From Halorussus gelatinilyticus (GTDB lineage: Archaea > Halobacteriota > Halobacteria > Halobacteriales > Haladaptataceae), in assembly GCF_023238445.1 (NCBI RefSeq), contig NZ_CP096658.1:1054001-1118000 (forward strand): a DNA stretch of 64,000 nucleotides. The letters are read 5' to 3'. The translations under genes were made by a program, and so were the position numbers. This document shows positions 1,680 through 4,966 of the stretch, piece by piece. Each line of letters starts with the position of its first letter. Position 1 is the stretch's first letter. The notes below the pieces were generated by a model. It searched no databases, was not told the DNA's origin, and was given only the letters and a program-made list of their open reading frames with translations.

Positions 1680-2453
1680 CTACCGTAACATCCGGTCCAC
1701 CATCGCCAGCACGTCGTCCACTGGCGGCCGGTCGTCGGTGCCCTCGCCGCGGTGGACCGCGAACAGTCGCAGGTCCCCGTCGCGGGCGTCCAGAATCGCG
1801 GTCTGGGGTAGTCGCCCGAGGAGGTCGTGGAGACCGCCCAACTTGCCGAATCTGGTCGGCTGGCCGTACTGCTCGGCGACCGACTTGTCGGCGTCGGCGA
1901 CGACCGGGAACGGCGAGTGGGTCTTCGTCTGCCACTTGGTGGCCTTCTCCTCGGACTCCGGCAGAACCGAGACGACCGCGGCGTCGCGCTCGCGGAACTC
2001 GCCGTAGCGGTCGGCGACCGCCCGGACCTGCTCGCGGCACGCCCGACTGTAGTAATCGCGCTGGAACAGCAGGACGATAGCGGCGTTGTCCTCGGGCGGC
2101 GTCCGCGTGCGGTTCGGTCGCCGCGCGGCCATCTCGGGGTCGGCCGCGAGGTCCGAGAGGACGAGCGGGTCGGATCCGGTGCCGGCGTTGGGCGACTCGA
2201 AGTCGAGTTCCGAGACGCCGAGGTCGTCGCGTTCTCGCTCCAGCCCGGCCGCCGCGCTTCCGCCCTTGATGAGTCGAAGCACCTTCACGCGGTCGGTCTC
2301 GACGGGCTGGTCCTCGGGGACCGGGCGGCCGTCCACCATCACCGAGACCTCGTGGGGGCTGAGGTCCACTTTCGCCAGCAGGTCGGCGTAGGTCGCGTCC
2401 TCGACTTCGAAGTCGTGAGTCCCCTCGCCGACGACTTCGACGGTCACGTTCAT
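1680..2453 (-). CDS. SAMP2 (ubiquitin-like) domain fused to a peroxiredoxin/AhpC-TSA domain
   Basis: The protein has 257 residues. Residues 1-65 look like a complete SAMP2, the small archaeal modifier: it starts MNVTVEVVGE, contains LSPHEV and VDGRPVPEDQ, and ends at the diglycine of VLRLIKGG. SAMP2 is normally a free protein of about 66 residues ending at this diglycine, which is adenylated by UbaA for protein conjugation and tRNA thiolation. Here the frame continues without a stop through SAAAGLERERD into a redoxin domain (about 80-257) with VLLFQRDYY, one cysteine (C139 in SRACREQV) and FPVVADAD. The usual first Cys of a CxxC-like site is Ser136. Unless a protease cuts after Gly65, the diglycine is blocked. 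The start is set by a CTTACC box about 28 nt upstream. A sequencing error removing a stop is possible. Confidence 0.75.
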   Translation of the reverse strand: MNVTVEVVGEGTHDFEVEDATYADLLAKVDLSPHEVSVMVDGRPVPEDQPVETDRVKVLRLIKGGSAAAGLERERDDLGVSELDFESPNAGTGSDPLVLSDLAADPEMAARRPNRTRTPPEDNAAIVLLFQRDYYSRACREQVRAVADRYGEFRERDAAVVSVLPESEEKATKWQTKTHSPFPVVADADKSVAEQYGQPTRFGKLGGLHDLLGRLPQTAILDARDGDLRLFAVHRGEGTDDRPPVDDVLAMVDRMLR

Positions 2454-2638
2454 GGAGTAGGAGTTTCGGGGCGCGCGTGGTAAGCGTGTCGGGCTACGAA
2501 GGTGCGGGAGGCCGAAAGCCGACGGACTCGGACGGCGGACCCATCGGAGACGAAGTCCGAGGACAGCCAGCCACCGCCGACGCCGAGTAGGGTTTCGCAC
2601 CCGCCGATTCTGTATAGCCATAGATGGTTTACCGGCTC

Positions 2639-3682
2639 CTACAGCGTCGAGTCGGCCGCCGTCTCGTCGCGGCCGCCGTACCGCCGCCGACCGCCGAGTG
2701 CGAGCGCGCCGAGACCGAGCAGGAGGACGACGAATTGAACCAGACCGCCCAGAATCGGGACGAAGCCGACCAGCGAGACCGCGACGAGACCGACCGCGAG
2801 CGCGACCCACTTGCTGTCGTTGTCGGCGACCCCGGCCAGCCAGCCGCCGAGCGCGAACGCGCCGTAAACGTACCCGAGCCACAGCGCGACGGCGTACAGC
2901 AGGACGCCGAAGAGGCCGAGCGGAATCCCGACGAGCGAGACGAACAGCAACACGAGCAGTATCGGAACGCCGACGAACAGCAGGAGTCCGACCCCCGCAG
3001 ACCGGAGCGGGTCCGCGATAGCTCGCGACGCGACCCCCGCGGAGAACCGCGGGAAGACGAGCAGTGCGACCGCGCCGAGGACGAAGTTCACGAGGAAGCC
3101 GTACACCGCACCGAGCCAGTCGGGGAACAGCGGACCGCCGACGCCCACGCCGAGGTTCACGTTCGGCTCCTCGCGGACTCGGCCGTCGATTCGGGCACCG
3201 GATGCCCTGTCGAGGTCGCCGTCGTACACGAAGTCGCCGCCGACGACCGCGCTCGGGCCGAGCCTGATGGTGCCCGCGCCGACCCGCGCGTCCCGCCCGA
3301 TTTCGCCCTCGACCACGACGTTGCCCGCCGCGGTCTCCAACTCGCCGCCGATTTCGCCGCCCTGCGCGAGCAGGAAGTTCCCGCCAGCGGCGGTAACGTT
3401 GCCGGTGACGGTGCCGTTGACGCGGACGTTGCCGGCGAACGCTTCGAGGTCGCCGTTCACCCGCCCGTCAACGAACACGTTGCCGCCGAACGCCGTCACG
3501 TCGCCGTTCACGGTGCCGCGGACGACGACCGTGCCTCCGAACGCGGTCAGGTCCTCGTTGACCGTCTCGCCCGCCTCCACGACGACGGTCCCGCCGCTCC
3601 GGGTCTCGTCGGCCGCGACCGGCGCGGGGACTGCCGCGAGGACGACCAGCGCCGCGAGGACGACTGCGAGTCGGGTTTTCAT
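2639..3682 (-). CDS. bactofilin-like polymer-forming repeat protein with C-terminal membrane domain
   Basis: The 347-residue protein has a signal peptide (about 1-24, ending PVAA), then a run of short beta-helix-like repeats (about 28-165) built on GTVNGDVTAFGGNVFV-type units, as in the polymer-forming bactofilin-like family. About six hydrophobic helices follow (190-335), with a basic C-terminus. The repeat domain would sit outside the membrane given the signal peptide. Haloarchaea carry many such proteins, which are usually annotated as polymer-forming cytoskeletal proteins; their substrate or partner is unknown. It is transcribed toward the SAMP2 fusion gene and away from rfcS. Confidence 0.65.
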   Translation of the reverse strand: MKTRLAVVLAALVVLAAVPAPVAADETRSGGTVVVEAGETVNEDLTAFGGTVVVRGTVNGDVTAFGGNVFVDGRVNGDLEAFAGNVRVNGTVTGNVTAAGGNFLLAQGGEIGGELETAAGNVVVEGEIGRDARVGAGTIRLGPSAVVGGDFVYDGDLDRASGARIDGRVREEPNVNLGVGVGGPLFPDWLGAVYGFLVNFVLGAVALLVFPRFSAGVASRAIADPLRSAGVGLLLFVGVPILLVLLFVSLVGIPLGLFGVLLYAVALWLGYVYGAFALGGWLAGVADNDSKWVALAVGLVAVSLVGFVPILGGLVQFVVLLLGLGALALGGRRRYGGRDETAADSTL

Positions 3683-3922: not shown

Positions 3923-4966
3923 ATGAGCGAGGTCGAGAGCGAAGCCGAGAGCGAGGCCGACGAGGCGGCCGAATCGGACGAGGGAGTCGCGCCGGACGAC
4001 GCGACCGACGCCACCGAGGCGGCCCGCGGGGAGATCTGGATCGAGAAGTACCGCCCCGAGCGGTTGGACGACGTGGCGGGCCACGAGGACATCACCGAGC
4101 GCCTGAGCCGGTACGTCGAGCGCGACGACCTGCCGAACCTCCTGTTCTCCGGACCGGCGGGCGTCGGGAAGACCACTTCTGCGGTCGCCATCGCCAAGGA
4201 ACTGTACGGCGACGACTGGGAGAGCAACTTCCTCGAACTCAACGCCTCCGACCAGCGGGGCATCGACGTGGTCCGGGACCGCATCAAGAACTTCGCGCGC
4301 TCGTCGTTCGGCGGGGCCAACTACCGCATCATCTTCTTGGACGAGGCCGACTCGCTGACTTCGGACGCCCAGTCCGCGCTCCGCCGGACGATGGAGCAGT
4401 TCTCGAACAACACCCGGTTCATCCTCTCGTGTAACTACTCCAGCAAGATCATCGACCCGATTCAGTCGCGGTGCGCGACGTTCCGGTTCGGTCCCATCTC
4501 CGAGGAAGGCGTCACCGAGCAGATTCTGAAGGTCGCCGAACAGGAGGGCATCGAGACGACCGAAGACGGCATCGAAGCGCTGGTCTACGCCGCCGACGGC
4601 GACATGCGCAAGGCCATCAACGCGCTCCAGGCCGCGGCCGTGATGGGCGAGGTCGTGGACGAGGAGGCCGTGTTCACCATCACCAGCACGGCCCGCCCGG
4701 AGGAAATCGAGGAGATGGTCACGTACGCCATCGAGGACGACTTCAGCAAGGCGCGCTCGATTCTGGACGACCTGCTCACGAACAAGGGGATGGCGGGCGG
4801 CGACATCATCGACCAACTCCACCGGTCGGTCTGGGAGTTCGACCTGAGCGACGAGGCCACCGTCCGCCTGATGGACCGCGTGGGCGAGGTCGATTACCGC
4901 ATCACGGAGGGCGCGAACGAGCGCGTCCAGCTAGAGGCGCTGCTGGCGTCGCTGTCGCTCGAATAG
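3923..4966 (+). CDS. rfcS: replication factor C small subunit
   Basis: This is the 347-residue AAA+ clamp-loader small subunit, which with RfcL loads PCNA onto primed DNA. Residues 36-52 carry the RFC box ([14 protein letters not shown]), 77-84 the Walker A motif GPAGVGKT and about 139-142 the DEAD Walker B; the SRC arginine-finger motif follows ([10 protein letters not shown]). An acidic extension of about 35 residues precedes the conserved core. No intein is present, although this family often carries one. A TTTAAG box about 30 nt upstream of the ATG supports the start. Confidence 0.97.

Follow-up and report, generated by a model that had tools for sequence, protein, structure and literature searches.

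A SAMP2-redoxin fusion as the only SAMP2 gene in Halorussus genomes and a candidate JAMM-matured proprotein

In Haloferax volcanii the thiolation of tRNA-Lys(UUU) requires the ubiquitin-like modifier SAMP2 together with UbaA and NcsA (PMC4048286). In a 64,000-nucleotide stretch of the Halorussus gelatinilyticus genome (the window), the samp2 frame does not stop at its diglycine: it runs 192 residues further, and a free C-terminus is absent from the primary gene product. If the H. volcanii-type role of SAMP2, UbaA and NcsA in thiolation is kept in Halorussus, the diglycine must be freed.

An earlier note on this DNA had described the first 65 residues as an intact SAMP2 ending at LIKGG, and profile searches bear this out. 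They match Pfam PF21965 (1.3e-30; 106 bits against a cut-off of 27), the NCBIfam equivalog NF041919 (115.6 bits; threshold 70) and the solved Haloferax volcanii SAMP2 (2l32/4hrs, 8e-25). The continuation of the frame into a redoxin domain, reported there with no strand, is confirmed on the minus strand (Table 1) by matches to AhpC-TSA PF00578 over residues 125-223 (1.7e-14; 54 bits against 26) and to Redoxin PF08534 over residues 136-247 (2.7e-8). Both folds are confident in a predicted model, with pLDDT 92-96 over residues 1-60 of the SAMP2 part. G+C per codon position is 0.76/0.43/0.91 in the fusion ORF, and the SAMP2, linker and redoxin segments all show codon-position G+C typical of a coding frame; an antisense ORF (1827-2483, plus strand) was set aside as a mirror ORF of GC-rich DNA. 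Judged from its sequence, the protein contains a SAMP2 domain rather than being mature SAMP2.

Table 1. Positions within the window of the fusion gene, its segments and its upstream element.
Feature	Position	Strand	Remarks
Whole fusion gene (SAMP2 - linker - redoxin), 257 aa	1680..2453	minus	ATG 2451-2453, TAG 1680-1682
SAMP2 domain, residues 1-65, LIKGG end	2259..2453	minus	Gly65 codon 2259-2261
Linker, residues 66-77, SAAAGLERERDD	2223..2258	minus	Predicted cut between Gly65 and Ser66
AhpC/TSA-type redoxin domain, residues 78-257	1683..2222	minus	PF00578, PF08534, Foldseek
Ser136 codon	2046..2048	minus	First position of the family CxxC; Thr position of the peroxiredoxin motif
Cys139 codon	2037..2039	minus	Second position of CxxC; aligned with the peroxidatic Cys
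Upstream element CGACACGCTTACCAC	2477..2491	minus	Putative promoter (BRE/TATA)

Comparison of upstream sequences showed that almost every Halorussus locus keeps the CGACACGCTTACCAC element about 25-40 bases 5' of the ATG; it is likely a promoter that gives a near-leaderless transcript. In the window, samp2 is separated from the divergent rfcS (3923-4966) by a bactofilin-domain gene (2639-3682, minus), and it lacks the adjacent GNAT gene by which samp2 is usually followed in relatives.

Both domains were detected in all 18 Halorussus genomes searched for them. Read at the DNA level, 17 of these have an in-frame junction: 16 carry complete fusions, and the draft G015 has a frame break further on inside the redoxin. 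A scan of the genome collection found the identical in-frame join in H. aquaticus, H. ruber, H. salinisoli and H. marinus. In G005 six consecutive G at the very junction disrupt the frame: the SAMP2 end becomes KGGAV-stop, and this stop is overlapped by a GTG in the frame of the redoxin. A seventh G would restore the usual KGGSG join, so that a missed base and a young split are both possible; slippage is a further possibility. Our search of the open-licence literature found no published SAMP2-redoxin fusion, whether as the sole SAMP2 source of a genus or otherwise, and no work on Halorussus ubiquitin-like proteins (Ubls). Fusions of Ubls to partners and Urm1-peroxiredoxin conjugation are already known, and the SAMP2-redoxin fusion is what appears new in the literature searched.

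The fusion locus also holds the only SAMP2 of these genomes. In each of the 18 a single SAMP2 passes the family cut-off, always at this locus, and the search for a separate stand-alone SAMP2 that the earlier note had proposed returned none in the window genome or in the other 17. A weak second match in G007 is a MoaD-like protein. The enzymes expected to act with SAMP2 are conserved: NcsA-type proteins (TIGR00269) occur in 18 of 18 genomes and a UbaA-type E1 in 17, missing from one draft that is 62% complete. A working SAMP2 in Halorussus can thus probably be obtained only by cutting the joint protein. JAMM proteases (Prok-JAB) are present in all 18 genomes, and that of the window genome matches solved JAMM domains and has the full catalytic motif E...HSHP...SxxD (EEICG ... 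HSHPRGPAEPSATD). As in a JAMM-processed Ubl precursor, the fusion has residues past the diglycine and a JAMM protease in the same genome. The presence of JAMM does not in itself prove cleavage: Haloferax volcanii, which has free SAMP2, also has one, and since haloarchaea with and without the fusion both have JAMM proteases it does not discriminate between them.

Sequence change in the genus is distributed unevenly along the fusion. LIKGG at residues 61-65 is invariant in the 16 complete fusions and the residue directly past the diglycine is Ser in 14 of them, while the linker ranges from 12 to 50 residues (12 in the window protein). Median pairwise dN/dS is 0.09 for SAMP2, 0.36 for the redoxin and 0.83 for the linker, the last a rough value based on poorly alignable sequence; these values indicate purifying selection on the first two and near-neutral change in the linker. 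In the predicted model residues 64-75 have pLDDT below 50, indicating a disordered linker. A low-confidence linker of this sort would be expected of a tail or spacer that is cut, and equally of a flexible tether that is not.

We favour, with a probability of roughly 0.6, the reading that the gene product is a SAMP2-redoxin proprotein matured by a JAMM/MPN+ desampylase of the HvJAMM1 type, which would hydrolyse the bond past Gly65. The freed SAMP2 would then be adenylated and thiocarboxylated by UbaA and serve NcsA-dependent tRNA 2-thiolation and sampylation, and the same cut would release a redoxin with its N-terminus near Ser66. This idea, one of those raised in the earlier note, is strengthened by the sole SAMP2, the conserved dependent enzymes, the little-constrained linker, the occurrence of two fusions (below) and the JAMM precedents (PMC4443979, PMC6043591). 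The precedents are what make us favour JAMM maturation: HvJAMM1 cuts a linear SAMP1-MoaE precisely behind the Gly, both in vitro and in vivo, and thereby restores its function (PMC4443979), and CsJAMM cleaves CsSAMP precursors (PMC6043591). HvJAMM1 also frees NcsA of SAMP2, and its cleavage of linear SAMP2 linkages is stated in general terms rather than for a SAMP2-redoxin substrate (PMC4048286).

Linear Ubl-MoaE proteins (MoaD-MoaE, SAMP1-MoaE) resemble the Halorussus fusion in having an N-terminal sulfur-carrier Ubl, a diglycine and then an in-frame partner, and the SAMP1-MoaE test fusion has no activity before JAMM has cut it after the Gly (PMC4443979). They differ in that the partner of MoaD is an enzyme that uses its sulfur, whereas SAMP2 is here joined to a redoxin; archaeal Ubl-MoaE fusions have been reported from Crenarchaeota only (PMC4443979). 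The Ubl-Cgi121 fusion of Thaumarchaeota is likewise an archaeal Ubl encoded with an adjoining domain, with a different partner, and the Caldiarchaeum SAMP precursors cut by CsJAMM are encoded with extra residues and have no redoxin. Eukaryotic ubiquitin-ribosomal protein fusions, to which the locus had been likened, also supply a modifier as a proprotein. That parallel holds in its logic and not beyond it: the modifier family is another one and the protease presumably of another class. In contrast to the ubiquitin fusions, with only one SAMP2 gene per genome all Halorussus SAMP2 would depend on the cut.

The released partner would be a peroxiredoxin-like protein. Peroxiredoxins are the top Foldseek matches of the redoxin model, the best being M. 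tuberculosis BcpB (5epf, E 4.2e-10, TMt 0.80). Cys139 is the sole Cys of the 257-residue protein; in an alignment to 5enu it is paired with the peroxidatic Cys, and Ser136 with the PxxxTxxC Thr; Arg takes the place of the Pro, which makes peroxidase activity doubtful. SelL-related and AhpC-TSA redoxins (NF040769, PF00578) share the thioredoxin fold and a CxxC at the peroxiredoxin active-site place; the window redoxin differs in scoring 39 bits on NF040769 against a cut-off of 120. Outside Halorussus CxxC was found in 20 of the 21 active sites read. Among the 16 complete Halorussus fusions there are nine CxxC, six SxxC and one CxxS sites, and G005 also has SxxC, so that the first Cys is lost in 7 of the 17 Halorussus redoxins read at that site. 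This loss is repeated in the fused lineage and rare outside it; the second Cys of the motif is lost in G013. Ser136 had been noted as standing where a first Cys is expected; this holds in comparison with the haloarchaeal CxxC family, but in the peroxiredoxin motif (PxxxT/SxxC) position 136 corresponds to the Thr. Since Ser136 falls on that Thr and SxxC recurs in six other Halorussus redoxins, we read the change as a lineage-wide erosion to a one-Cys form and not as a gene defect. The window protein may therefore be a one-Cys redoxin with altered chemistry. With CxxC in only 9 of 16 full redoxins, and one that has the first Cys alone, it is uncertain that a Cys chemistry is strictly required.

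The pairing of the two domains has relatives in other systems. In yeast, attachment of Urm1 to Ahp1, a 2-Cys peroxiredoxin, depends on the peroxidatic Cys of Ahp1 (PMC7016264, PMC8561144), and archaeal Urm1 expressed in yeast conjugates Ahp1 (PMC12645042). Two peroxiredoxins are modified by Urm1 in S. islandicus (PMC12625751), and in Thermococcales genes for OcmC-family peroxiredoxins adjoin Ubl genes (PMC2948915). The yeast and Saccharolobus pairs are alike in combining an Urm1-type modifier with an AhpC/TSA-type protein; they differ in being post-translational conjugates or acyl disulfides formed from free Urm1, whereas the Halorussus pair is a genetic head-to-tail fusion. By analogy, freed SAMP2 and redoxin probably work as partners like yeast Urm1 and Ahp1. 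In the likeliest form of such a partnership Cys139, once oxidised, would react with the SAMP2 thiocarboxylate to yield a persulfide and/or a conjugate. A link of the fusion to oxidative stress, as the earlier note had supposed, is plausible from the Urm1-Ahp1 and archaeal Urm1-peroxiredoxin cases. More tentatively, and short of an even chance, the locus would be an archaeal module of the Urm1-Ahp1 type, consisting of neighbours in several families that were hard-wired twice. Each cut would free the modifier together with its redox partner and set the supply for every SAMP2 function, and the oxidised Cys would take sulfur from its own SAMP2 or become conjugated to it.

Gene order across the order bears on this partnership. 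We surveyed 146 genomes and the loci fetched from them. An unfused redoxin gene adjoins samp2 in 12 genomes of five families (f3, f5, f6, f8 and f15) and also in Halohasta salina, where samp2 stops at TAA and the ATG of the redoxin follows about 50 bases on, giving at least 13 genomes with separate neighbours. About 87% of the sampled SAMP2 loci outside the genus have no adjoining redoxin; in some haloarchaea the redoxin lies apart from samp2 (e.g. G085, G122, G149) and elsewhere it was not found in this survey. In the four genomes from sister genera of the Halorussus family SAMP2 stops at the diglycine with no redoxin beside it. The search for SAMP2-redoxin fusions in haloarchaea, proposed in the earlier note, yielded one besides the 16 complete Halorussus fusions: G088 (family f5) reads KGG-SGRVHAPETVDF and both Pfam domains are found. 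In the redoxin tree G088, a long branch, joins unfused f5 genes (support 97/89), apart from the Halorussus clade (100/99), whose nearest relatives are, less firmly supported, unfused f6 genes. At least two fusion events are thus the simplest reading, with some reserve because of the long G088 branch, and SAMP2 and redoxin would be functional partners whose genes began as neighbours and were later fused at least twice. Other candidates were dropped: in G143, a draft genome in which coordinates suggested a fusion, SAMP2 is frame-broken near residue 40, and G070, G022, G050, G115 and G100, in which they suggested fusion or read-through, have separate neighbours with a normal stop.

Extensions past the diglycine are not confined to fusions. 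Of 99 SAMP2 loci outside the genus, 80 end at the diglycine, 18 have 1-24 extra residues and one is the G088 fusion, the tail fraction being indicative because the sample is the stronger-scoring part of the survey. As 19 of the 99 extend past the diglycine, a free C-terminus does not define the SAMP2 family. The tails begin with Ser in 10 of the 18 and occur in several families (L090, L092, L155, L164, L182, L185, L188, L012 with 6 residues, and others); the tails of G070 (24 residues) and G019 (17 residues) both belong to genes that adjoin an unfused redoxin. These tailed SAMP2s may, from their sequences, be unrecognised precursors.

The same neighbours and tails can be read as a graded path by which the chance loss of a stop joined two adjacent genes. 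A housekeeping desampylase would cut the product, so that the fusion costs nothing, and the two proteins would share no function beyond co-expression. The almost free evolution of the linker and the lack of the usual GNAT neighbour in the window genome agree with such an origin. However, a neighbourhood kept in five families and two fusions argue for a functional link, and Ubl-peroxiredoxin pairing recurs in Thermococcales, Sulfolobales and yeast (PMC2948915, PMC12625751, PMC7016264); we regard a purely accidental join as possible and rather doubtful.

Alternatively, the fusion might stay uncut, its blocked-tail SAMP2 acting as a docking domain that takes the redoxin to UbaA, NcsA or proteasome partners. 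Stability throughout a genus and two well-folded domains in the model fit this view, as they would the redox-linked module with a blocked tail that the earlier note had offered. We disfavour both, and consider the uncut fusion unlikely: it would leave the sole SAMP2 blocked beside conserved UbaA and NcsA, LIKGG is invariant in 16 of 16 fusions and needless for a docking domain, and linear SAMP1-MoaE is inactive before cutting (PMC4443979).

Separate products might also arise without proteolysis, by internal initiation for the redoxin and by ribosomal slippage or early termination for free SAMP2. The G005 junction, with its broken six-G run and overlapping GTG, is of the kind expected, but no conserved start codon at the linker or junction and no conserved internal start for the redoxin were found among the Halorussus fusions, the window junction (AAG GGC GGA AGC) has no slippery run, and internal initiation alone leaves SAMP2 blocked, which makes this route very improbable. 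That a sequencing or assembly error joined two genes can be dismissed: close neighbours elsewhere are separate genes, but the 17 genomes with an in-frame junction have differing linkers and coding-type selection acts on both sides of it, and the in-frame joins in other species and many independent genomes exclude the base-call error, or missed stop after the diglycine, against which the earlier note had asked the join to be checked.

Should the JAMM-matured proprotein indeed be cut, every tRNA thiolation and sampylation that needs SAMP2 would in Halorussus depend on a desampylase as maturase, and the genus offers a natural test of a role for which the haloarchaeal evidence so far comes from an engineered SAMP1-MoaE. 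A real partnership would tie Urm1-type modifiers to peroxiredoxin-like proteins genetically in archaea, and the age suspected for the Urm1-peroxiredoxin connection could then be tested in cultured strains. With tails past the diglycine in 18 of 99 other SAMP2 genes, maturation is perhaps more general among haloarchaea than annotated. A second MoaD/ThiS-type Ubl in this genome (G000:C1:711004-711255 onward) extends 14 residues past its diglycine (...FPPVAGG-ARPRTCSRVAERKR), and with the SAMP2 tails this means that trimming after the diglycine seems to be asked of more proteins than the fusion. In family f8 the SAMP2s (L016, L014, L090 and others) carry inserts of about 10-30 residues before the TYADLL helix.
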